From: Carboxylicivirga linearis
Lineage (GTDB): Bacteria; Bacteroidota; Bacteroidia; Bacteroidales; Marinilabiliaceae
NCBI RefSeq assembly: GCF_018271995.1
Contig: NZ_JAGUCO010000001.1
Coordinates: forward strand, 310,001 to 374,000
DNA: 64,000 bases
Reading direction: 5' to 3'
Shown: in pieces, positions 18,975-29,213 of the stretch
Layout: each line of letters begins with the position of its first letter
Position numbering within the stretch: position 1 is the stretch's first letter
The notes under the pieces: model-generated
What the model saw: only the letters and a program-made list of their open reading frames with translations
Database searches by the model: none
What the model was told of the DNA's origin: nothing
Made by a program: the position numbers and the translations under genes

Positions 18975-20447
18975 ATGTCCGCTACATCTAAAAAAGTAAT
19001 TATTGTTGGAGCTGGTTTTTCATCCCTTTCAGCCGCCTGTTATTTGTCACAAGAAGGATATGATGTTACTGTATTCGAAAAAAACAGCTATTCAGGGGGG
19101 AGAGCTCAACAATTAAAAAAGGATGGATTTACATTTGATATGGGGCCAACCTTTTATTGGATGCCGAATGTATTTGAATCATTTTTTAATGATTTTAATT
19201 TTTCATCAGAAAATTTCTATCAACTCGACAGACTTGACCCTGCTTATGAGGTCTATTTTGCAGATAGCTCTGTTAAGATTGCCAATAATTTTGAATCGAT
19301 AAAACAGACTTTTGAAGAACTTGAGCCTAACAGTGGTAAATCCCTTCAGAAGTTTATTAATGAAGCGGAGGATAATTATAAGATAGCCATTAAAGATTTG
19401 GTATATCAACCTGGGCAAAGTATTTGGGAAATAATAACTCCCCAAACAGCTAAAAAACTGGGTTCTTTCGTTACTACTATTTCTCAGTCAGTTCGTAAAG
19501 TCGTAAAAAGTGCAGAGTTAAGAAAGATAATGGAGTTTCCGGTTTTATTCCTGGGGGCTAAGCCGTCTAATACTCCTGCATTCTATAATTTTATGAATTA
19601 TGCCGATTTTAAATTGGGTACCTGGCATCCTAAAGGTGGAATGTATGAGGTTGCTCAGGCTTTGCATAAGTTGGCTTTAAAATTGGGCGTTACCATACAT
19701 CATAATAGCAGGGTTGAGCAGATAGTTGTAAATAATGGAATATCCAGAGGTGCAATTATTAATGGTAAGGAATATAAATGTGATGTTCTATTGAGTGGCG
19801 CTGATTATCAATTTACCGAGCAATTATTACCTGAAAGCTATCGACAGTACTCAGAAAAATACTGGGATAAAAAGACGTTTGCGCCATCAGCCTTGTTATT
19901 TTATGTGGCATTTGATAAGAAATTAAAGAATCTGTCGCATCATACCTTATTTTTCGATGTAGATTTTGAGCGTCATGCGAAAGAAATATACGAAACTAAA
20001 CAATGGCCCGAAGATCCTTTGTTTTACGCTAGTTTTCCTAGTATAACTGATGCAAGTGCAGCGCCTGAAGGTAAGGAGGCTGGAATTTTTTTAGTGCCTT
20101 TAGCTGCAGGTCTTTCAGACTCAGAAGAACAAAGACAGAAGATATTCGATAAAATTATTTCCAGAGCCGAACGATTAACTAAACAAAAGTTGAAAGAACA
20201 TGTTCTATTTAAAGAGTCATATGGTGTAAATGACTTTATATCTGATTACAACTCATATAAAGGAAATGCTTATGGACTTGCAAATACGCTGTTGCAAACA
20301 CATGTTCTGAGACCCAAATTGCAAAGCAAGAAAGTGAAAAATTTGTATTTCACCGGGCAGCTAACCGTTCCAGGACCGGGAATTCCGCCTTCATTAATTT
20401 CCGGTAAAGTGGTCAGTTCATTAATCAAAAAATACCATAAATCATGA
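18975..20447 (+). CDS. crtI: Phytoene desaturase (CrtI type)
   Basis: FAD-dependent desaturase converting phytoene towards lycopene. The 490 residues have the N-terminal dinucleotide site VIIVGAGFSSLSAACYL, the adjacent EKNSYSGGRAQ and the C-terminal carotenoid desaturase signature LYFTGQLTVPGPGIPPSL. It is the first gene of a five-gene operon. Its stop overlaps the crtB start by 4 bases (ATGA). The start is ATG 18975; the upstream region has near-matches to the -7 box but no clear promoter. The number of desaturation steps cannot be read from sequence; the lycopene cyclase downstream argues for lycopene. Confidence 0.95.
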   Translation: MSATSKKVIIVGAGFSSLSAACYLSQEGYDVTVFEKNSYSGGRAQQLKKDGFTFDMGPTFYWMPNVFESFFNDFNFSSENFYQLDRLDPAYEVYFADSSVKIANNFESIKQTFEELEPNSGKSLQKFINEAEDNYKIAIKDLVYQPGQSIWEIITPQTAKKLGSFVTTISQSVRKVVKSAELRKIMEFPVLFLGAKPSNTPAFYNFMNYADFKLGTWHPKGGMYEVAQALHKLALKLGVTIHHNSRVEQIVVNNGISRGAIINGKEYKCDVLLSGADYQFTEQLLPESYRQYSEKYWDKKTFAPSALLFYVAFDKKLKNLSHHTLFFDVDFERHAKEIYETKQWPEDPLFYASFPSITDASAAPEGKEAGIFLVPLAAGLSDSEEQRQKIFDKIISRAERLTKQKLKEHVLFKESYGVNDFISDYNSYKGNAYGLANTLLQTHVLRPKLQSKKVKNLYFTGQLTVPGPGIPPSLISGKVVSSLIKKYHKS

Positions 20448-21280
20448 AACAGTTATTTGATACATCAAGCTATAGCTGTAGCAGGTTGGTTACCAAAACC
20501 TACAGTACGTCTTTTTCAAAGGCAATAACACTTCTGGCTCCATCAGTCAGACCAGCTATTTATGCTATTTATGGCTTTGTTCGTTATGCCGATGAAATAG
20601 TGGATTCTTTTCATTCTTATAATCAGGAAGAATTGCTTAAAGAATTTGAACAGAATTATTACAAAGCCTTGGAGCGAAAAATTAGTTTAAATCCCATTTT
20701 AAATGCCTTTCAGGAGATTGTGCATAGTTACAAACTATACGATTTAGTCGATTCATTTATGCATAGCATGAAAATGGATTTACACAAAAATAGTTATCAA
20801 TCAGTAGAAGAATATAAAGATTACATTTATGGTTCGGCGGATGTGGTTGGATTGATGTGTTTAAAAGTGTTTGTTAGAGGCAATGAGAAACGCTATACTG
20901 AGTTAGAGCCGTATGCAAGGCGGTTGGGTTCAGCATTTCAGAAGGTGAATTTCTTACGCGATTTTAAAGATGATACTGAAACTCTAGGAAGATCTTATTT
21001 TCCAAACCTTCAGAGTTATAATCTGGATGATTCAGTAAAGCGAGAAATAATTAAAGACATTGAAGATGATTTTGCTGAGGCTTATAAAGGTATTGTTAAA
21101 CTGCCTATTGAAGGTCGATTAGGGGTTTATCTGGCCTACAGATATTATATGCGTTTGTTACGGGAGCTAAAATTAGCCGATAGTAAAAAAATATTGAAAG
21201 AGCGCATAAGAGTGAATAATTTCCTTAAGCTGGAGATACTATTGAAATCGTACGTAAGATATAAGCTTAATATACTATAA
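20444..21280 (+). CDS. crtB: Phytoene synthase
   Basis: Condenses two geranylgeranyl diphosphates to phytoene. The 278 residues belong to the trans-isoprenyl diphosphate (squalene/phytoene) synthase family and show both aspartate-rich motifs: DEIVD (within RYADEIVDS) and DFKDD (within NFLRDFKDD). The ATG overlaps the crtI stop (ATGA), which indicates translational coupling. The next gene starts at the base after its stop. No separate GGPP synthase gene is in the window, so substrate must come from elsewhere. Confidence 0.95.
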   Translation: MKQLFDTSSYSCSRLVTKTYSTSFSKAITLLAPSVRPAIYAIYGFVRYADEIVDSFHSYNQEELLKEFEQNYYKALERKISLNPILNAFQEIVHSYKLYDLVDSFMHSMKMDLHKNSYQSVEEYKDYIYGSADVVGLMCLKVFVRGNEKRYTELEPYARRLGSAFQKVNFLRDFKDDTETLGRSYFPNLQSYNLDDSVKREIIKDIEDDFAEAYKGIVKLPIEGRLGVYLAYRYYMRLLRELKLADSKKILKERIRVNNFLKLEILLKSYVRYKLNIL

Positions 21281-21718
21281 ATGAATGTATTTGTTTTCAT
21301 TGGTTTGTTGTTGGTTTCATTCTCTGAGGAAGACTCAATAAGAATGCAATACCATCATGTAAATAGCAAGGAATCATTGGAGACATTTATTTCTATTATT
21401 GAAAAATCGGACCTTCCTGTATCTGAGGTATATCTTGCTTCGGCATACATGCAAATGGCTAAATATGTTTTCTCGCCATATAGCAAGCTTAAATACTTTA
21501 ATAAGGGAAAAGACATGCTTGAAGTGTTTATATCTAAAAATCCGAATAATATCGATGGTAAATACGTACGCTATCTGGTGCAAAGTAACGCACCTTCTTT
21601 TCTCGGGTATTCTTCCGATATGGTGTCTGACAAAATCTTTATAAGAGAAAATATTAATGAGGCAGATATTGGAGTGTCTCTTAAGAAAATGATGCTTGAT
21701 AATTTAAGTAATGAATAA
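21281..21718 (+). CDS. Unknown small exported protein inside the carotenoid operon
   Basis: The 145-residue protein has an N-terminal hydrophobic stretch (about residues 2-14), probably a signal peptide or anchor. A helical region follows with a repeat-like SEVYLASAYMQMAKY, suggestive of tetratricopeptide-type helices. The start codon directly abuts the crtB stop and the crtZ ATG comes 6 bases after its stop, so it is cotranscribed and probably translationally coupled with the pigment enzymes. It has no residues of a known carotenoid enzyme. A role in enzyme assembly or pigment transfer in the envelope is a guess from position only. Confidence 0.72.
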   Translation: MNVFVFIGLLLVSFSEEDSIRMQYHHVNSKESLETFISIIEKSDLPVSEVYLASAYMQMAKYVFSPYSKLKYFNKGKDMLEVFISKNPNNIDGKYVRYLVQSNAPSFLGYSSDMVSDKIFIRENINEADIGVSLKKMMLDNLSNE

Positions 21719-21724
21719 AAAGAG

Positions 21725-22204
21725 ATGGTTATGGTACTTTTCTATATTCTAATTGTAATAGCAACGTTTGTTGTAATGGAGGGTATTACATGGTTTACAC
21801 ACAAATATGTTATGCACGGATTTTTATGGGTATTGCATGAAGATCACCATGATTTAGTTAATGAAACTACCTTTGAAAAAAACGATGCCTTCTTCATTAT
21901 TTTTGCCACACCAAGTATTTTGCTGTTTTACTATGGTATTAATCCAGCATTGAATTTTATGTTCTTCATTGGTTTAGGAATCTTCTTTTATGGTATGGCT
22001 TACTTTCTTGTACATGATGTATTTATTCATCATCGGTTTAATTGGTTGAATAATGTTAGTCATCCATATATGCGAGGTTTATGGCTGGCGCATAAGAGTC
22101 ATCATAAAGGGGGCAAGTGCTTTGGTATGTTATATGTTCCCTACAAGTTTATTAAGGAAGCAAAGTCTATGACGGATAAGGAACTTAAAGGCAGTTTGAT
22201 TTGA
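21725..22204 (+). CDS. crtZ: Beta-carotene 3-hydroxylase (fatty acid hydroxylase superfamily)
   Basis: Di-iron membrane hydroxylase expected to turn beta-carotene into zeaxanthin. The 159-residue protein has four membrane segments and the expected histidine clusters: HKYVMH, HEDHH, HDVFIHH and HKSHH. The start is ATG 21725, with a second ATG at 21731 possible. Its TGA overlaps the TTG start of the lycopene cyclase by 4 bases. Together with crtI, crtB and the cyclase it predicts zeaxanthin as end product; no ketolase or 2,2'-hydroxylase gene is seen. Confidence 0.92.
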   Translation: MVMVLFYILIVIATFVVMEGITWFTHKYVMHGFLWVLHEDHHDLVNETTFEKNDAFFIIFATPSILLFYYGINPALNFMFFIGLGIFFYGMAYFLVHDVFIHHRFNWLNNVSHPYMRGLWLAHKSHHKGGKCFGMLYVPYKFIKEAKSMTDKELKGSLI

Positions 22205-22902
22205 GTTTCCAGAATTATACATATTTGTTGGTTGATTTATTTTGTATTCTAGTACCATTTATTGCCAGTTTTTACCCTAAACATTCTTTTTATAAAGAAT
22301 GGAAATATTTTCTGCCAGCTAATCTTGCTGTTGCATTTTTCTTCTTAATTTGGGATTATTTATTTACAGAAGCTGGTATTTGGGGATTTAATCCTGACTA
22401 TTTAACGGGTATATATTTGGGCAACCTACCCATTGAGGAGATCTTATTTTTTATATGTATTCCATATGCCGTTGTTTTTACCTATTTCGCAATACAATAT
22501 CTCTTTGCTAAGAATTGGTTAACACCAAAGGTTCACTTTATAACTGGATTGTTGGTTGTAGTATTTATTTCTATTGGCCTGTATTTTTATAATAGACTTT
22601 ATACCACAATAACATTAATATCAACAGGCATTTATCTCTTAGTTTTGCTTGTTAAGCGGAAAGATATCAGCTGGATTTATTTTTCTTATCTGTTAATAAT
22701 TCCCTTTTTTTTAGCGAGTAATGGGGTTCTAACAGGTTCCTGGATTGATGAACCAATTGTGTGGTATAATAATGCTGAAAATATGGGATTGAGAATAGGT
22801 ACGATTCCCATAGAAGATAGTGTTTATGGCTTTTTGTTAGTTTTAATGAATATTCAGCTCTATGAATTTATTAAAAAAGGCAAAAAAAAGACCGTTGAGT
22901 AA
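22201..22902 (+). CDS. Lycopene cyclase (CrtYcd/CarR membrane type), TTG start
   Basis: Integral membrane cyclase closing lycopene ends to beta-ionone rings. The 233 residues contain two tandem lycopene-cyclase domains, each with a characteristic motif: NLPIEEILFF (first) and TIPIEDSVYG (second). The fused layout equals actinobacterial CrtYc plus CrtYd. The frame has no ATG before a position deep in the second domain. In-frame stops just upstream and the conserved N-terminus (NYTYLLVDLF) place the start at TTG 22201, overlapping the crtZ stop as TTGA. A bidirectional terminator follows, and its loop contains this gene's stop codon. Confidence 0.92.
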   Translation: MSFQNYTYLLVDLFCILVPFIASFYPKHSFYKEWKYFLPANLAVAFFFLIWDYLFTEAGIWGFNPDYLTGIYLGNLPIEEILFFICIPYAVVFTYFAIQYLFAKNWLTPKVHFITGLLVVVFISIGLYFYNRLYTTITLISTGIYLLVLLVKRKDISWIYFSYLLIIPFFLASNGVLTGSWIDEPIVWYNNAENMGLRIGTIPIEDSVYGFLLVLMNIQLYEFIKKGKKKTVE

Positions 22903-22935: not shown

Positions 22936-23379
22936 TTATTGTATCTGTTTAACCAGCGACATCACAGCTTTGGCACAACCTTCTTGTCCTCCTTTAAATG
23001 AGAATGATAGATTGTAAACACCTGCTTTTCTACAAACAAAGCTAAATTCATCAAAAGTTTTCCCATTGTATAAGTTACTGGCAAGAACTCTGGTTGCTTC
23101 TTTATCTTTCAATTGCATCACTACCTTATCGATGTTTGATGCACCGTTTGCAACATTGAATTTATATTGTGTATTACTGTTTAAGAAGATAGAAAATTTA
23201 ACGTATCCTGTTTTAACATCTTTCTTCTCTTTAATTAACTCAACAGTAAAATCTTTGATATACTGACTGCTTCCCATTTCCTTAAGGGCCTGCTTCAATA
23301 AGTCATCCCCACATTGAGCATGGCTGGTAAAAACAAAAGCTGTTAAAAGAAATAGTAGACTATATAATGACTTCTTCAT
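22936..23379 (-). CDS. Small secreted protein of unknown function
   Basis: The 147-residue protein starts with a signal peptide (about residues 1-21, ending TSHAQ). The mature part has cysteines at C23 (QCGDD), in FVCRKAG and in EGCAKA. The strand-rich middle (GYVKFSIFLNSNTQY, VYNLSFSFKGG) suggests a small beta-sandwich. It has a well-formed promoter of its own (23417-23446) and shares a terminator with the carotenoid operon, so it is probably a separate unit from the transporter genes upstream. No family or function is recognised. Location is periplasm or surface. Confidence 0.72.
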   Translation of the reverse strand: MKKSLYSLLFLLTAFVFTSHAQCGDDLLKQALKEMGSSQYIKDFTVELIKEKKDVKTGYVKFSIFLNSNTQYKFNVANGASNIDKVVMQLKDKEATRVLASNLYNGKTFDEFSFVCRKAGVYNLSFSFKGGQEGCAKAVMSLVKQIQ

Positions 23380-23416: not shown

Positions 23417-23446
23417 CAAAAATAAGCTTTTTAAAGATTATTCAAA
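23417..23446 (-). promoter_or_regulatory. Promoter for the small secreted protein gene
   Basis: On the minus strand TTTG (23443-23446) and TATTTTTG (23417-23424) are separated by 18 bases, a near-ideal Bacteroidota promoter. It overlaps the very end of the upstream lipoprotein gene. Confidence 0.68.
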
Positions 23447-24361
23447 TTATGACACAATGAATTCACGTAGAGCATTAATTTCTGCAATGATGGCACTAAC
23501 TTGTTCTGGCGTAATATCAACGTGGCTAATCTCATCTTGTACGATAACTAATTTGCCGTCTTGCTCAATAGTTTTTGGATCACCAATTTCTGTAGTAATC
23601 GTTACACCTTTATATGACGCCTTTAATTTGGCTAATTGCTCAGCTAATTCAGAGAAACTAGGTTGTTTGTTATAGTTCTGAAGAATGATCTCCAAAATAT
23701 TGATAATGTCTTTTTGTTCGGCTATACGCTTGATTAAGCCTTCGTTGTTGGTTTGCTCAACAACTTTTCCAGCAATGTACAAGCCTTCAATCCATGCTCC
23801 GGTAACAATCAATGAAGAAACATTACTACGGTTCTGACTACGTAGGTATGAATCCATTTTATTGAAACTTGAAATTGAAATCTGCATCAATGAATCAAGA
23901 TTGTTGCTGTTAGTGGCTAATCTTTTTAGCGAATTAAAATCGAAAAACTGACCTACTTTAATTCCTTCAGCTAATGATTTAATTGAAACCAAATAATCAA
24001 TTACAATGGTGTTTTTGTCAAATGTGTTGATGTAACCTAAATCAGCACTGTATACACCTAGATTTAAAGCTCTTTTAAAGCTGGTATTGTAATTGTCAAT
24101 TTGATTAGTGCTGTTTAATATTTTCTGTGAGAATTCTACTCCAGTTGATTTAATCAATGAGGCCATTTCAACAGGCGACGAGATATTTTGAATCACATCA
24201 CTCATTACCTCTTCTGAAAGCTCAAGTGGTGCTGCATTAGCTAATGAATCATTAAAAGTCAATTCGTCAGATGACGATTTCTTATTCGATGATCCTCCAC
24301 AAGCAGTCATTAAAAATACACCTGCTAGTGTAAGGGTTAAGTAAGTGAATTTTTTTAACAT
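23447..24361 (-). CDS. Lipoprotein of unknown function downstream of the TerB-ABCG transporter
   Basis: From ATG 24361 the product is 304 residues with a signal peptide and lipobox MTAC (lipid-modified Cys at 20), followed by a Ser/Lys-rich linker. The rest is helical, with FKRALNLGVYSADLGY and ISISSFNKMDSYLR and no catalytic motif. An ATG at 24382 is an alternative start; a longer frame begins with TTG. It follows the transporter by 56 bases and is probably its cotranscribed partner on the periplasmic side or outer membrane. Role unknown; substrate delivery or sensing for the transporter is inference from position. Confidence 0.78.
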   Translation of the reverse strand: MLKKFTYLTLTLAGVFLMTACGGSSNKKSSSDELTFNDSLANAAPLELSEEVMSDVIQNISSPVEMASLIKSTGVEFSQKILNSTNQIDNYNTSFKRALNLGVYSADLGYINTFDKNTIVIDYLVSIKSLAEGIKVGQFFDFNSLKRLATNSNNLDSLMQISISSFNKMDSYLRSQNRSNVSSLIVTGAWIEGLYIAGKVVEQTNNEGLIKRIAEQKDIINILEIILQNYNKQPSFSELAEQLAKLKASYKGVTITTEIGDPKTIEQDGKLVIVQDEISHVDITPEQVSAIIAEINALREFIVS

Positions 24362-24417
24362 ATTTATAAATTTTAAATTCATTTTAGGTTTGTTATACAC
24401 TGTAGACCTTGAAAAGG

Positions 24418-27400
24418 TTACTTTTTGAAGAGTTTTAATTCTCCCAGATAATCTAAAGATTTCTTTAACCAATCAAAGTATAACGCAATATACATAACAA
24501 TGGTCAATAACCAAACGATGGAAATATTAAACCATAGTGTATCGAAATATTTACCTGCAAAATGTTTTTGTGGGGCAAAAAAGTGAGTTCTGAAGTCTAA
24601 AATATTCTCAGGTTCAGGCATTTGGTAAATTGGGTCCACAACCTGTACTAGTTTATTGCCATCTCTCAAGATTTTATTCTTATCAAAGGTTTTTCGAACA
24701 ATATCGGCAATACTTTCATTCATGTAATCGTCTTTTATGCGATTGAATTTTTCCTTATTGTTCTTCAGATTTTGAGTAATGAATAAATCAATTTTATTAT
24801 TGGCCTCAAAAAACTGACTGCTATAATGGCTTTTAAGAGTTTTTAGATATGTTTCTACCTCTGATGCCAATTCAGGAGTAAAGCCTTGTGGATTTATTTG
24901 ATCTAATTTATCAAATCCTATTGTTGGAACTCGTTTTAGTTCTTTGGATATTTCGTTGTGTAAAAGGTCTAAATCGGCAATAAAGGCTTTGTCTTCGTTG
25001 TCTGATGATAATTGAAAATGCTGTCTGCAATTGTTTAGTATTTCCTCTAATTCAGGAATGTAATAAACCTGTTTAAAGTCCGATTTACTATTTACTAATT
25101 CAGTATCAAAAATATTTTTTCTGTAGTTGTTGTGCTTGTATTGATGTACCATTAAACCTTCATATATGTATCTTGAAGGCATTACTTCAGCAACTATTGG
25201 TACTTTGTCAATACTTGTAAAATCCTTATTTAATTTATCAAAAGTAAACATTGCGCCACCCAATACCATCTGAGGAATCATAACCAGTGGGATTAAGATG
25301 TATATAGTTACAATTGAATTAAATGAAGCAGACAAAATGAGGCCTAAAATATTAGCGAAGGCTGAGATAGAAAATAGTGCCAGCCAAAACTCAAATGTCA
25401 TCCCTTTGATACCTAGAATAAAGTTACCAACTACCACAAATAGTACCATTTGAATAGCCGAAATTGTAAATAGGATCAAGATTTTGGAAACCAGATAACT
25501 CGATCGGCTTAGATTCAAGAACGACTCTCGCTTAAGAATTTTAGCATCCTTAAATATTTCTTCCGCACTCACAATCAAACCAAAAAACAGCGCAACAATA
25601 ATTCCCATGAAAAAATAGGGAGGTATATTGTCGTTTTCTCGAAAGATATAAACGTTCGATTCCGGATCTACAATGTAATGAATTAGGTATGCCAGTATAA
25701 ATCCTAATAAAGGAGCTTCCAATAAATTCAGTAAAATATATTGTTTGTTACTAACCTTCGCAAAGAAGTCTCTGATGGTATATATCTTAAACTGATTAAG
25801 CCATGAAGGAATATTCAATGATTTTGGAGGAGCTGAATTTACCTGATCTACCGTTGGTATCTCAATATTCTCTTTGTAATGCTCATGCCACTCTTCCGGT
25901 TTTGTTTTTCGCTTATTGGTGTAATTTCCGTATTCATCAATAACATTGGCGTCAATAATATTGAAGATTTGTTCTGGATTTAAATTACCACAAACAGCAC
26001 ATTCTCCTTGATCACTATTGATTTGCGCATCTAGGCGTTTAAAGTAGATAAGCGATTCGCTTGGGTTACCATAGAATACAGGATAGCCACCTGTGTCTAG
26101 AATATACATCTTATCAAACATCTTATAGATGTCGGATGATGGCTGATGAATAACTACAAAAATGAGTTTGCCTTTAAGTGCCAACTCACGAAGTAGGTTC
26201 ATCACATTCTCAGAGTCACGTGAAGAAAGACCGGATGTTGGTTCGTCAACAAACAATATTCCCGGTTCTCGAATTAATTCCAGAGCAATATTTAGCCTTT
26301 TTCGTTGACCACCACTTATCATTTTATTCAAGGGCGAACCTACCTTAAGATGGCGACGTTCATATAAACCCAGATTGATAAGCGTATTGTCAACCAACTC
26401 CTTTATCTCATCTTCTTTTTTATCTTTAAAACAGAGTTTGGCATTGTAGTATAGGTTATCAAAAACAGATAACTCTTCAATTAGAAGATCATCTTGTGGA
26501 ATATAACCAATAACACCTTCAACATTATCTCTGTCTTTATGAAGGTTGTATCCGTTAATCAAGACTTCACCTTCAGTAGGAGATTCAATACCAGAAAGTA
26601 CATTAAGCAGAGTGGTTTTACCAGCTCCACTTGCTCCCATTATTCCGATTAACTTCCCTTGTTCCTCTGAGATGTTAACATCGCGTAGACCAATTCCACC
26701 TGATTTAAACTGATACTTAACATCTTTAACTTCATATGAAATTTTAGAACCTGTAGAATCAGATAGAAAGTGCGAAACCACATCGGTATAGTATACCGGA
26801 GGTCCTTTGGGAAGTTTAATGAAACTACCTTTAGAAAATAGGTAGATTCTACGGTTACTAATCAGCAAGCTATTCAAAAATATTTCTTGCTGACCAGTAT
26901 ATCTTAGGAAGTATAATCCAGCACTTTTAATCCTTAGAATAATTACATTACCATCAAGTGTTCCGCACTGAATATGTTTGGCATTTGTAAAATTCTGCTC
27001 ACTGTCATTAACAATCATTGTATTTGCCAAATCTAGCTTTGACAGATCGTCGTTGACAGTGTAGGATTCAATTGCATCTATTTCTTCCTTTGGTAGTTTA
27101 AAAACATCTGCAACAGTGTTGATAATAGCCATCCGTTGGTCAGTGAACTTACGGTCGGCGTTTACCAATTCGTACAAACGTAAAAGAACAACTACCTTCT
27201 GTTCTTTATTTAGTTTCTTATTAATCTTTTTACATATCCCCAGAATCTTCACAGAATCCTTCATAGAGGTTAGTTTGACCTTGCCTTCTGGCTCGTCCTT
27301 ACCTAACTTCGAATCCTTTGAAAACTTTAAAAAAAGAGAGAAATATTCCTCTACAGCATCTGAACTCAGCTGTTGCTTTAGAAATGTTTTTACATATTCA

Positions 27401-27483
27401 GTCTCATTCGCTTCAACTCCGCCATCTTGTTTGGCAATCAAACCAAACAATTGCATCAGTGCTCTTAGAATTTCTTCACTCAT
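24418..27483 (-). CDS. TerB-like domain fused to an ABCG-type ABC transporter
   Basis: The 1021-residue fusion begins with a helical region (1-140) with two acidic, TerB-like segments (KQDGGVEANE and VNADRKFTDQ). A beta-rich stretch (about 165-250) follows that may be FHA-like, but I cannot confirm binding residues. The ABC domain has Walker A GASGAGKT (283-290), signature ISGGQRK (389-395), Walker B ILFVDE (409-414) and the H-loop VIHQPSSD. Five helices, a long extracytoplasmic loop of about 160 residues and a last helix near the C-terminus give the ABCG (ABC2) layout. It starts at ATG 27483, 31 bases after the SiaC-like gene. Substrate unknown. Confidence 0.88.
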   Translation of the reverse strand: MSEEILRALMQLFGLIAKQDGGVEANETEYVKTFLKQQLSSDAVEEYFSLFLKFSKDSKLGKDEPEGKVKLTSMKDSVKILGICKKINKKLNKEQKVVVLLRLYELVNADRKFTDQRMAIINTVADVFKLPKEEIDAIESYTVNDDLSKLDLANTMIVNDSEQNFTNAKHIQCGTLDGNVIILRIKSAGLYFLRYTGQQEIFLNSLLISNRRIYLFSKGSFIKLPKGPPVYYTDVVSHFLSDSTGSKISYEVKDVKYQFKSGGIGLRDVNISEEQGKLIGIMGASGAGKTTLLNVLSGIESPTEGEVLINGYNLHKDRDNVEGVIGYIPQDDLLIEELSVFDNLYYNAKLCFKDKKEDEIKELVDNTLINLGLYERRHLKVGSPLNKMISGGQRKRLNIALELIREPGILFVDEPTSGLSSRDSENVMNLLRELALKGKLIFVVIHQPSSDIYKMFDKMYILDTGGYPVFYGNPSESLIYFKRLDAQINSDQGECAVCGNLNPEQIFNIIDANVIDEYGNYTNKRKTKPEEWHEHYKENIEIPTVDQVNSAPPKSLNIPSWLNQFKIYTIRDFFAKVSNKQYILLNLLEAPLLGFILAYLIHYIVDPESNVYIFRENDNIPPYFFMGIIVALFFGLIVSAEEIFKDAKILKRESFLNLSRSSYLVSKILILFTISAIQMVLFVVVGNFILGIKGMTFEFWLALFSISAFANILGLILSASFNSIVTIYILIPLVMIPQMVLGGAMFTFDKLNKDFTSIDKVPIVAEVMPSRYIYEGLMVHQYKHNNYRKNIFDTELVNSKSDFKQVYYIPELEEILNNCRQHFQLSSDNEDKAFIADLDLLHNEISKELKRVPTIGFDKLDQINPQGFTPELASEVETYLKTLKSHYSSQFFEANNKIDLFITQNLKNNKEKFNRIKDDYMNESIADIVRKTFDKNKILRDGNKLVQVVDPIYQMPEPENILDFRTHFFAPQKHFAGKYFDTLWFNISIVWLLTIVMYIALYFDWLKKSLDYLGELKLFKK

Positions 27484-27514
27484 TGTTTAAATGTAGGGGT
27501 GTTTTGTTTTTTAA

Positions 27515-27895
27515 TTAGTCGGTGTAAGCAATGTATTCAAATGGAATTTCAACGATGTCAGCATATTCCTCACCAGCTTCCAACATATCTTCTTCCTCTT
27601 CGTGGTAATGCCAGTTGATTAATACTTCATGACCATTTTCAACAATTTCTTCAAATTTTAAAAGTATATCAAGGATAACTTTCGAAGAAGCTGTATTGAA
27701 ATATTCTAATTTAAAATTAAATTCAGTTTTTTCACATGGAGCTTCTGCATATGAATCAATCCATTCAAGAATAGGTTCATAGAACATATTTACATCCTCT
27801 GGAAGAGATCGGCCTGAAATTTCAAATTTAGCGTTGTCTTTATCAAGAATTACATTGGGGGTATCATCAGTCCCCTTAATGTTTATAAGTTCCAT
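27515..27895 (-). CDS. SiaC-family regulatory phosphoprotein (DUF1987)
   Basis: The 126-residue acidic protein matches the SiaC family. In Pseudomonas, SiaC is a threonine-phosphorylated switch protein set by kinase SiaB and phosphatase SiaA, and it acts on diguanylate cyclase SiaD. The phospho-site context is visible here as YFNTASSK with the threonine at residue 68. The gene lies 11 bases after the SiaB-like kinase and 31 bases before the transporter. No SiaA-type PP2C or SiaD-type GGDEF gene is in the window, so the output differs from the Pseudomonas system; the transporter is the obvious candidate. Confidence 0.88.
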   Translation of the reverse strand: MELINIKGTDDTPNVILDKDNAKFEISGRSLPEDVNMFYEPILEWIDSYAEAPCEKTEFNFKLEYFNTASSKVILDILLKFEEIVENGHEVLINWHYHEEEEDMLEAGEEYADIVEIPFEYIAYTD

Positions 27896-27906
27896 ATATG
27901 TATTAT

Positions 27907-28476
27907 TTAAGTACGTTTAATAGTTGATGTTAAAATAAAAAAGCTAACTTCTTCATTCAGCTCTTTGAACTGAAATCCAAGTTTACTACCTGTTTTCTTG
28001 GCGATATCGATAAATCCTAAACCGGCACCTCCTTTTTCAGAAATTCGGCCTTCACGCATTTGTTGTTTGTAAAGGTCTGATAACCCCTTTTTATCAAGGC
28101 TGTTTACGTGCTCAAGATTTTTCTTTAAGTCATCTACTTTTTCGTTTTTGATGACGTTGCCGGTAATGATGTTATAGCTTTCTTCACCATGACTAACCAT
28201 TACGATTCCTCTTCGATCTTCATCTTCATCAGATAATGAATCGGCATGTTTACTAATGTTCTGAAGGCATTCCACCATAACATTAAATACTTTGCGCTGA
28301 ACAGTGTTCGACTCTTCAGATTTTGCCAGATTTTTTTCTGTTAATGATGTGAAGGTTTTCGTAATTTCTTGAGTCACTTCACCTTCGTAAACCAAATTAA
28401 TCTCATTGGTTTTCATGCTTTTGTACATCTGGTAGGCAAAGTCCAGAAAACCTTGATTTTCACTTTTTTTATCCAT
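27907..28476 (-). CDS. SiaB-family protein kinase (GHKL-like fold, DUF6272)
   Basis: The 189-residue soluble protein has GHKL ATPase features: an N-box-like ECLQNISKHAD (N73) and a glycine-rich lid GGAGLGFIDIA (149-159). The family includes Pseudomonas SiaB, which phosphorylates SiaC on threonine. It is the first gene of a four-gene unit, siaB-siaC-transporter-lipoprotein, preceded by a strong promoter at 28542-28572. It has no sensor domain, so an upstream signal or the phosphatase partner must come from elsewhere. Anti-sigma-like kinases share the fold, but the SiaC neighbour supports this assignment. Confidence 0.86.
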   Translation of the reverse strand: MDKKSENQGFLDFAYQMYKSMKTNEINLVYEGEVTQEITKTFTSLTEKNLAKSEESNTVQRKVFNVMVECLQNISKHADSLSDEDEDRRGIVMVSHGEESYNIITGNVIKNEKVDDLKKNLEHVNSLDKKGLSDLYKQQMREGRISEKGGAGLGFIDIAKKTGSKLGFQFKELNEEVSFFILTSTIKRT

Positions 28477-28838
28477 GTCTACATGTGTATTATACTGTCT
28501 ATAAAGGTTCTTAATTCTACCTATGCTTTACCTCTCAAAAGCAAAAATAGAAAGAACCATATATATACCCAATCATTCATTTCTAATATTAGCATTTAAA
28601 TATGCTAATAATTTTCCGATTAAATGGTGAAATTTGGGGTTTAAGTCCAAAATATCAACCTATTGCGTTCGTTGCTACATAAAAATATGTAGGTATCGAA
28701 TTGCTCTTACGGGAAAAATGATGAATAGTTCGATCTTTTTCGGCTATTATAAGGGTTTTAAGGGTAAAAGTATGGTTTTCGGGGTTGAAATTTTTCTTTC
28801 CGCATTAATACCTTTACTCTTATGTACTTAAATACAGA
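28477..28838. other. Intergenic region between the Sia-type operon and the TerB gene
   Basis: This 362-base stretch holds the promoter at 28542-28572. The remainder (about 28580-28830) shows no credible gene: a 65-codon plus-strand frame at 28634-28831 needs a TTG start, is rich in rare combinations and has no family features. A short palindrome at 28835-28850 overlaps the TerB stop codon and could be a weak terminator for that minus-strand unit. Confidence 0.5.
28542..28572 (-). promoter_or_regulatory. Promoter of the siaB-siaC-transporter operon
   Basis: On the minus strand TTG (28570-28572) and TATTTTTG (28542-28549) are spaced by 20 bases, close to the Bacteroidota consensus, about 65 bases before the siaB-like ATG. 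Confidence 0.65.
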
Positions 28839-29213
28839 TTATTCAATCTGTTTAATGTCTTTTTTAAATCGATCTGTTAATTCATGAATAAAACGATCGA
28901 TCACTTTTTGTTCATCCTCATTGATGCCGTTGCTCGAATGCGCTACTTCTTCCATCACATCTACCATCATTTGGTATTCAGGATCAGGTCCGTTGTCCTG
29001 GCAGATGTTTAAAACCTTTTGATACAAATCTTCCACATTGCTCTGATGTAGCCGTTCGTAATCAAACGACCATTCTATATCTTTACCTGCCGGATGTTTT
29101 TGCAAAGCATTGTGCAAAACTTCAATTTCTTCAGGTTGAATAATGCCGTCTGCCATTGCCACCACATAAAGCATTTCACCAAATGCATCGTAAAGTCTGC
29201 TTTTAACACTCAT
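28839..29213 (-). CDS. TerB-like domain protein
   Basis: The 124-residue all-helical cytoplasmic protein has the TerB signature in MADGIIQPEEIEVL and a mirrored acidic helix pair GINEDEQKVIDRF. TerB-like domains occur in tellurite operons but also stand-alone or fused as metal-binding adaptor modules. No other ter gene is present, so tellurite resistance is not implied. It follows the isoaspartyl peptidase gene by 12 bases. Its upstream neighbourhood relation to a transporter that itself carries a TerB-like domain is notable. Start ATG 29213. Confidence 0.82.
   Translation of the reverse strand: MSVKSRLYDAFGEMLYVVAMADGIIQPEEIEVLHNALQKHPAGKDIEWSFDYERLHQSNVEDLYQKVLNICQDNGPDPEYQMMVDVMEEVAHSSNGINEDEQKVIDRFIHELTDRFKKDIKQIE

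Follow-up and report, generated by a model that had tools for sequence, protein, structure and literature searches.

The genes considered here lie on the minus strand of a 64,000-nucleotide stretch of Carboxylicivirga linearis DNA (assembly GCF_018271995.1, contig NZ_JAGUCO010000001.1, positions 310,001 to 374,000), which as a whole is referred to as the window. A preliminary description of this DNA had read the locus as four genes, for a SiaB-family kinase, a SiaC-family phosphoprotein, a TerB-like/ABCG transporter and a lipoprotein, packed with gaps of 11, 31 and 56 bases behind one strong promoter, and the coordinates and families agree with this arrangement. The SiaB protein scores 174.9 bits against SiaB_fam_kinase NF038262 (cut-off 85) and also matches DUF6272, and the SiaC protein scores 143.9 bits against PF09345 (cut-off 24.5). 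In the transporter, TerB PF05099 is matched with 39.6 bits (cut-off 24.4), along with ABC_tran and ABC2_membrane, and the nucleotide-binding domain precedes the transmembrane domain in one chain with an ABCG fold, i.e., it is an ABCG half-transporter. The four genes are real, but the cassette does not end with them, because a fifth gene, for a small secreted protein, belongs to it as well. The motif TTG-N20-TATTTTTG, the Bacteroidota promoter consensus, makes a promoter 5' of SiaB plausible, though not proven; the window holds nine matches to it compared with 5.7 +/- 2.7 in 30 mononucleotide shuffles, and for the word 'strong' there was no support. As argued below, we consider it probable that the cassette is a SiaABC-type partner-switching module with an ABCG exporter as its output.

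Features of the cassette and their positions in the window
Feature	Position	Strand	Remarks
SiaB-family protein kinase	27907..28476	-	189 aa; catalytic-type Glu69 in VECLQN
SiaC-family regulatory phosphoprotein	27515..27895	-	126 aa
Codon of switch residue Thr68 (SiaC)	27692..27694	-	
TerB - beta domain - ABCG half-transporter	24418..27483	-	1021 aa
TerB domain, transporter residues 8-138	27070..27462	-	PF05099; helical in model
Transporter residues 70-89 KLTSMKDSVKILGICKKINK, candidate SiaC docking site	27217..27276	-	around start of helix 74-90
Beta-rich domain, residues about 155-240, possibly degenerate FHA fold	26764..27021	-	from model
Nucleotide-binding domain, residues about 249-485	26029..26739	-	
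Large helical insert, residues about 792-970, preceding last membrane helix	24574..25110	-	from model and fold comparison
Lipoprotein	23447..24361	-	ATG at 24361, or in-frame ATG at 24382
Fifth cassette gene, small secreted protein	22936..23379	-	67 bases 3' of lipoprotein
Promoter-like site TTG-N20-TATTTTTG	28542..28572	-	begins at 28572
Second promoter-like site, 5' of fifth gene	23417..23445	-	begins at 23445

Related loci were collected by a scan of species genomes with the window's own transporter, which biases the sample to close relatives: 86 relatives were obtained, 80 were retained, and five of these (L110-L114), which hold ABC (ATP-binding cassette) domains only, were dropped. The remaining 75 TerB-ABCG loci are relatives along the whole protein or up to the contig end, and span Marinilabiliaceae, other Bacteroidales, several Cytophagales families and two assemblies labelled Chlorobiota. 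SiaB-SiaC lies directly upstream of TerB-ABCG in 63 of the 69 assessable loci, the lipoprotein gene lies directly downstream in 71 of 72, and the fifth gene is kept in 69 of 71. A chance neighbourhood was rejected as the explanation, since the arrangement recurs, and conservation of the genes together, on which the preliminary description had staked its reading, came out in favour of that reading. At the six assessable loci where SiaC is not directly adjacent, the SiaB-SiaC pair is found about 2 kb upstream of the transporter (L085) or SiaC is encoded elsewhere in the genome (L057, L089, L092 and L097); for one transporter (L098), no SiaC was found in the whole genome. Variations on the pair were seen at some loci: three tandem SiaB genes precede one SiaC and the transporter at L224:9887-11674 (minus strand), and a second SiaC-SiaB pair, in which Ser replaces Thr68 and SiaB is about 365 aa, lies about 2.5 kb downstream of the cassette in L077, L080, L081 and L083 (near 12.9-14.8 kb, minus strand).

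In most of the relatives examined, the cassette is longer than in the window; at full length it encodes, in this order, a GAF-like protein, SiaA, SiaB, SiaC, TerB-ABCG, the lipoprotein and the small secreted protein. Of 61 assessable loci, 48 have the SpoIIE-type (PP2C) gene for SiaA immediately before SiaB, and in 42 of these 48 a gene for a small protein of one family comes before SiaA in turn, GAF being matched in the one cassette member of this family that was scanned (L182); both cassette SiaA proteins scanned with Pfam (L048 and L182) carry GAF and PAS domains besides PP2C. The 13 loci without an upstream SiaA consist of 11 with transporters 79-93% identical to that of the window (mostly Carboxylicivirga) and two of Sporocytophaga. 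The phosphatase partner had been described as missing, and it is absent from the window, but a search of the whole genome, as the preliminary description had proposed, located its orthologue on the same contig, at a distance of about 100 kb (L183:5369-7972, corresponding to G000:C93:234369-236972). The genome encodes eight SpoIIE proteins. In a tree, this one nests among 13 cassette SiaA proteins, with support of 100/99 for a set of six (five from cassettes and itself), and the remaining seven fall outside the cassette SiaA group. Judged by eye, its PP2C domain keeps the metal-ligand motifs, such ligands being listed in PMC7647112 (this and all other papers cited by PMC number are drawn on in excerpt). 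The gene preceding it matches the first gene of the cassette at 1.7e-34, although its GAF match lies below the Pfam cut-off. Because the SiaA gene and the GAF-like gene that match the first two cassette genes lie about 100 kb away, the cassette is split in two in this genome, the only one in which the displacement of SiaA was traced. Taken on sequence, the predicted cognate sensor PP2C of a SiaABC module is present in the genome. The genes upstream of the displaced GAF-like gene and SiaA include CheB- and CheR-like ones, identified by sequence reading, and GAF/PAS-like ones (L183:3-7972).

The catalytic-type residue of SiaB and the switch residue of SiaC are conserved in the cassette proteins. 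Glu69 is present in 69 of 69 aligned SiaB proteins, including two from convergent pairs described below. Thr68 of SiaC, which had been predicted to be the switch residue from the motif YFNTASSK, aligns with Thr68 of Pseudomonas SiaC and is kept in all 73 transporter-linked SiaC proteins, as the prediction would have it. Both proteins nevertheless miss the Pseudomonas equivalog cut-offs, SiaB with 91.5 of 225 bits (NF038264) and SiaC with 84.7 of 150 (NF038265). At positions 29, 31, 107 and 114 of the face that binds SiaD in Pseudomonas, all 73 transporter-linked SiaC proteins have R, L, A and I/L/M, whereas the Pseudomonas protein has D, Y, L and D; at position 69, 72 of the 73 have A where Pseudomonas has S. 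The partner face of transporter-linked SiaC is, by this alignment, fixed but unlike that of Pseudomonas. Since SiaC structurally resembles anti-sigma factor antagonists (PMC7647112), it might instead act as an anti-anti-sigma factor that alters transcription, with the transporter as one target gene. Against this, Pseudomonas SiaC binds its effector SiaD directly (PMC8457831), and no sigma or anti-sigma family was matched among the cassette genes searched, a search that did not extend to the neighbourhood and the genome. We regard such a transcriptional role as very improbable.

Elsewhere in the phylum, SiaC adjoins (once one gene off) proteins that share an N-terminal stalk, KITRISDxTQxKL. Twelve stalk proteins were chosen by eye from 20 regions, ten of them scanned; the proteins (among L154-L171) continue into GGDEF, HisKA-HATPase, guanylate cyclase or SpoIIE domains, or into nothing recognised. 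The stalk motif matches the SiaC-contacting residues of SiaD, which are K77, R80, I81, S82, D83 and Q86 (PMC8457831). Judged from these sequences, SiaC has the look of a modular switch that plugs into many outputs; DUF1987 proteins have been suggested to commonly modulate adjacent proteins (PMC8457831).

Co-occurrence of SiaC and TerB-ABCG was counted in two samples of genomes. For the first, 296 genomes, including the window's own (G000), were drawn evenly from the window's phylum, and a sixth TerB-ABCG match (G236, weak, 63 residues) was dropped. Seventeen genomes have SiaC and five have TerB-ABCG, and all five have both; without the window's genome, SiaC is present in 4/4 transporter genomes versus 12/291 others. 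In each of the five, TerB-ABCG adjoins one SiaC, in G186 (C4) as judged from coordinates alone. The second sample comprised 146 genomes of one related order (that of G049, taken as Cytophagales), in which presence per genome was counted: TerB-ABCG is in 91 and SiaC in 93, with 90 genomes having both, one the transporter only, three SiaC only and 52 neither (Fisher p 1e-34, uncorrected for kinship). The switch is greatly expanded in family f62 of this order, where two genomes (G348 and G394) have at least 28 SiaC genes each (28 of 54 and 56 candidates scored) and ten others have 11 to 21.

The diguanylate cyclase domain GGDEF, the Pseudomonas-type output, had been noted as absent from the window, and this extends to the entire genome, in which a protein search for GGDEF returned none. 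Nor was GGDEF found in any of the 93 SiaC-bearing genomes of G049's order; the one genome of the 146 that has it lacks both SiaC and the transporter. In the 296-genome draw, GGDEF is present in 0/5 transporter genomes and in 12/12 SiaC genomes without the transporter, in three of which a GGDEF gene, one of them broken by stops, is the neighbour of SiaC. The output of SiaC appears to have been exchanged, GGDEF for transporter. A distant GGDEF cyclase was rejected as the output of SiaC because neither the window's genome nor the SiaC-bearing genomes of the order encode one; for the refuting outcome named beforehand, in which SiaC binds a distant cyclase, no GGDEF cyclase exists.

The window's genome contains a second pairing of switch and transporter; in all, it encodes three SiaC and two SiaB proteins and four TerB-ABCG transporters. 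At L006, the other SiaB-SiaC pair and a TerB-ABCG gene point towards each other across 39 bases, and the same convergent arrangement occurs in G045, a genome of another family. The last two TerB-ABCG genes have a lipoprotein homologue nearby and no SiaC nearby, and for the third SiaC gene (L007:9580-9960, plus strand), no SiaB or transporter was matched within 19 kb. These arrangements bear on the proposal that SiaC acts on a protein elsewhere, such as one with the KITRISDxTQ stalk, and that the transporter is merely co-expressed. The stalk neighbours of SiaC in other genomes of the phylum speak for such a target, as does the frequency of genomes with several SiaC genes; co-expression alone, however, leaves the convergent pair unexplained, and the existence of two arrangements, co-directional and convergent, together with the strong co-occurrence and a genome free of GGDEF, argues against it. 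We consider a target elsewhere unlikely. Of the earlier proposal that the output is a phosphothreonine-gated transporter, the part that names the output is supported: given co-conservation and the absence of GGDEF, the output is most likely the transporter.

Fold comparison matched residues about 245-1011 of the transporter to eukaryotic ABCG proteins (AtABCG25, ABCG2 and ABCG5), and the TerB and beta parts lie outside the match. The beta-rich domain is possibly a degenerate FHA fold: hhalign against FHA gave P 0.0025 and a probability of 11.7%, a weak match to the C-terminal half only, with controls at P 0.39 and 0.62. A match to the FHA domain of Mek1 (E 0.17) was not repeated with a wider alignment, with which a PDB profile search returned no FHA; FHA was not among the matches listed (25 of 35 families) for 33 transporter N-termini, and Pfam FHA was matched nowhere in the window's genome. 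Residues 70-89 differ between SiaC-linked and unlinked transporters. Val78 occurs in 67 of 69 SiaC-linked clade members and in both convergent transporters, compared with 0.05, as a fraction, among 42 unlinked paralogues. A quick tree of 59 transporters groups those directly SiaC-linked into one clade (support 100), with 40 unlinked ones as the sister group and the convergent ones outside these two. Forty extra loci were taken by hand from weaker transporter matches in the 146-genome scan; the contigs of L225 and L239 are short, and L250 was scored as unlinked though SiaB lies about 2.3 kb away. The sequence signs of a docking site in the transporter are weak.

On the outer side of the system, the large helical insert would be extracytoplasmic by analogy with ABCG topology. 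The lipoprotein and small secreted protein families gave single weak Pfam matches only. The lipoprotein model (predicted local distance difference test, pLDDT, 79.5) yielded 229 Foldseek matches at E <=10, the best at 0.66 and none at <=0.001. Lipoprotein homologues also adjoin some TerB-ABCG genes that have no SiaC. ABC transporters of the BceAB type feed into some histidine kinases, and the transporter here could likewise be the sensor, with substrate load, sensed together with the lipoprotein and the small protein, feeding into SiaB or SiaC. The conserved lipoprotein and secreted partners and the large insert before the last membrane helix would suit such a role, and no other obvious effector is found among the cassette genes; conversely, a sensor is already part of the system in the form of the phosphatase with its GAF and PAS domains, and a sensing transporter would leave the cassette without an effector. 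This direction of signalling seems to us distinctly improbable.

With the transporter as output, the pathway may be pictured as follows. Sequence comparison establishes which families the proteins belong to, that the cassette is conserved, that its switch and transporter co-occur, which protein the displaced phosphatase is and that GGDEF is absent; the steps are modelled on Pseudomonas, where SiaB phosphorylates and SiaA dephosphorylates T68 of SiaC (PMC7647112) and phosphate on T68 prevents binding to SiaD (PMC8457831). By analogy, SiaB would phosphorylate SiaC on Thr68, the phosphate would block partner binding, and the sensor phosphatase SiaA, which has N-terminal hydrophobic segments, GAF, PAS and PP2C, would strip it on perceiving its signal. 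Unphosphorylated SiaC might then bind the cytoplasmic N-terminal region (TerB and beta domain) of the dimeric half-transporter, with residues 70-89 as the candidate site, and binding might switch the transporter on, rather than off. The transporter would presumably export a substrate, and its putative partners in the envelope are the lipoprotein and the small secreted protein.

Several observations weigh against this picture. The cassette and its SiaA are apart in the window's genome, and at L057 the transporter stands without any cassette neighbours. Many genomes hold more SiaC than TerB-ABCG genes (at least 28 SiaC in two), so that SiaC has other targets. The GGDEF-adjacent SiaC proteins of the phylum likewise differ from the Pseudomonas protein (positions 29, 79, 103, 107 and 114) while keeping Y31 and S69; since cyclase-linked proteins depart as well, a changed SiaC face is by itself no sign of a transporter partner. 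On the transporter side, Val78 is kept in all eight orthologues without an adjacent SiaC, including L098, whose genome is the one without SiaC; the convergent-pair transporters lack Q19, G22, K89 and R117; and the SiaC-binding stalk motif showed no significant match to the transporter N-terminus (hhalign E 0.24). Because the SiaC-linked transporters form one clade, their special residues may reflect ancestry alone.

Among known systems, SiaABCD of Pseudomonas aeruginosa (PMC7647112, PMC8457831) is alike in its PP2C phosphatase SiaA, kinase SiaB, Thr68 of SiaC and adjacent output gene. It differs in that its output is the GGDEF cyclase SiaD, whereas here an ABCG transporter is adjacent in a genome without GGDEF, and also in the SiaC partner face and the equivalog scores given above. 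The preliminary description had held that a phosphothreonine-controlled exporter was undescribed, which is too wide: control of this kind is not new, because in Mycobacterium tuberculosis the kinase PknF, encoded next to Rv1747, modulates this ABCG transporter, probably an exporter, through phosphorylation of threonine (PMC3908365). Rv1747 is likewise an ABCG half-transporter that carries additional regulatory domains, and its operon includes a Ser/Thr kinase. There, as excerpted, the kinase phosphorylates the transporter itself, which has FHA, whereas in the present system the phosphoprotein is a small protein apart from the transporter, with a kinase and a phosphatase of its own, and the transporter has a TerB domain, with FHA only suspected. 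In the MlaFEDB lipid transporter, MlaB, a STAS-domain protein, sits on the ABC protein MlaF and is needed for the transporter; Thr52, at the centre of the interface, is suspected of being a phosphosite but not proven to be one (PMC7367683). The relation of SiaC to STAS is one of structure only (PMC8457831). MlaB moreover binds the nucleotide-binding domain, its Thr52 phosphorylation is not shown in the excerpted text, and the transporter is not ABCG (PMC7367683). In the literature searched, which most subscription journals lie outside, no SiaC-type or other complete partner-switching circuit acting on an ABC transporter was found, and the SiaC output that was found is a diguanylate cyclase, whereas the switch in the cassette is linked with an exporter, in genomes in which no GGDEF was found. 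A wider proposal, to which we give about even credence, is that a STAS-like phosphoprotein docks on the TerB and FHA-like N-terminus of this ABCG clade. No ABC transporter gated by a full partner-switching circuit of sensor phosphatase, kinase and phosphoprotein is known so far, so this would be the first, and one branch of a family that rewires a single SiaC switch to cyclases, histidine kinases, phosphatases and exporters. The system bears on a question left open in PMC7367683, whether MlaB, as the STAS protein of an ABC transporter, is phospho-controlled at Thr52: because the system unites a STAS-like regulator, its kinase, its phosphatase and an ABC transporter, and some hosts are isolates, harmless and culturable, the question becomes directly testable.

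Some further genes were noted around the cassette and its relatives. A 124-aa TerB-like gene at 28839-29213 of the window was rejected as a cassette member, as it was matched in the window only and not in the loci of relatives. Carotenoid biosynthesis-like genes (CrtI-, CrtB-, CrtZ- and lycopene cyclase-like), identified by sequence reading only, occupy 18975-22902 on the plus strand of the window. At L029:5886-11436, the genes after a divergent TerB-ABCG gene are, in order, those for a small secreted protein, a response-regulator/kinase-like protein and the lipoprotein, the middle ones being identified by sequence reading, and this transporter is perhaps coupled to another signalling gene.

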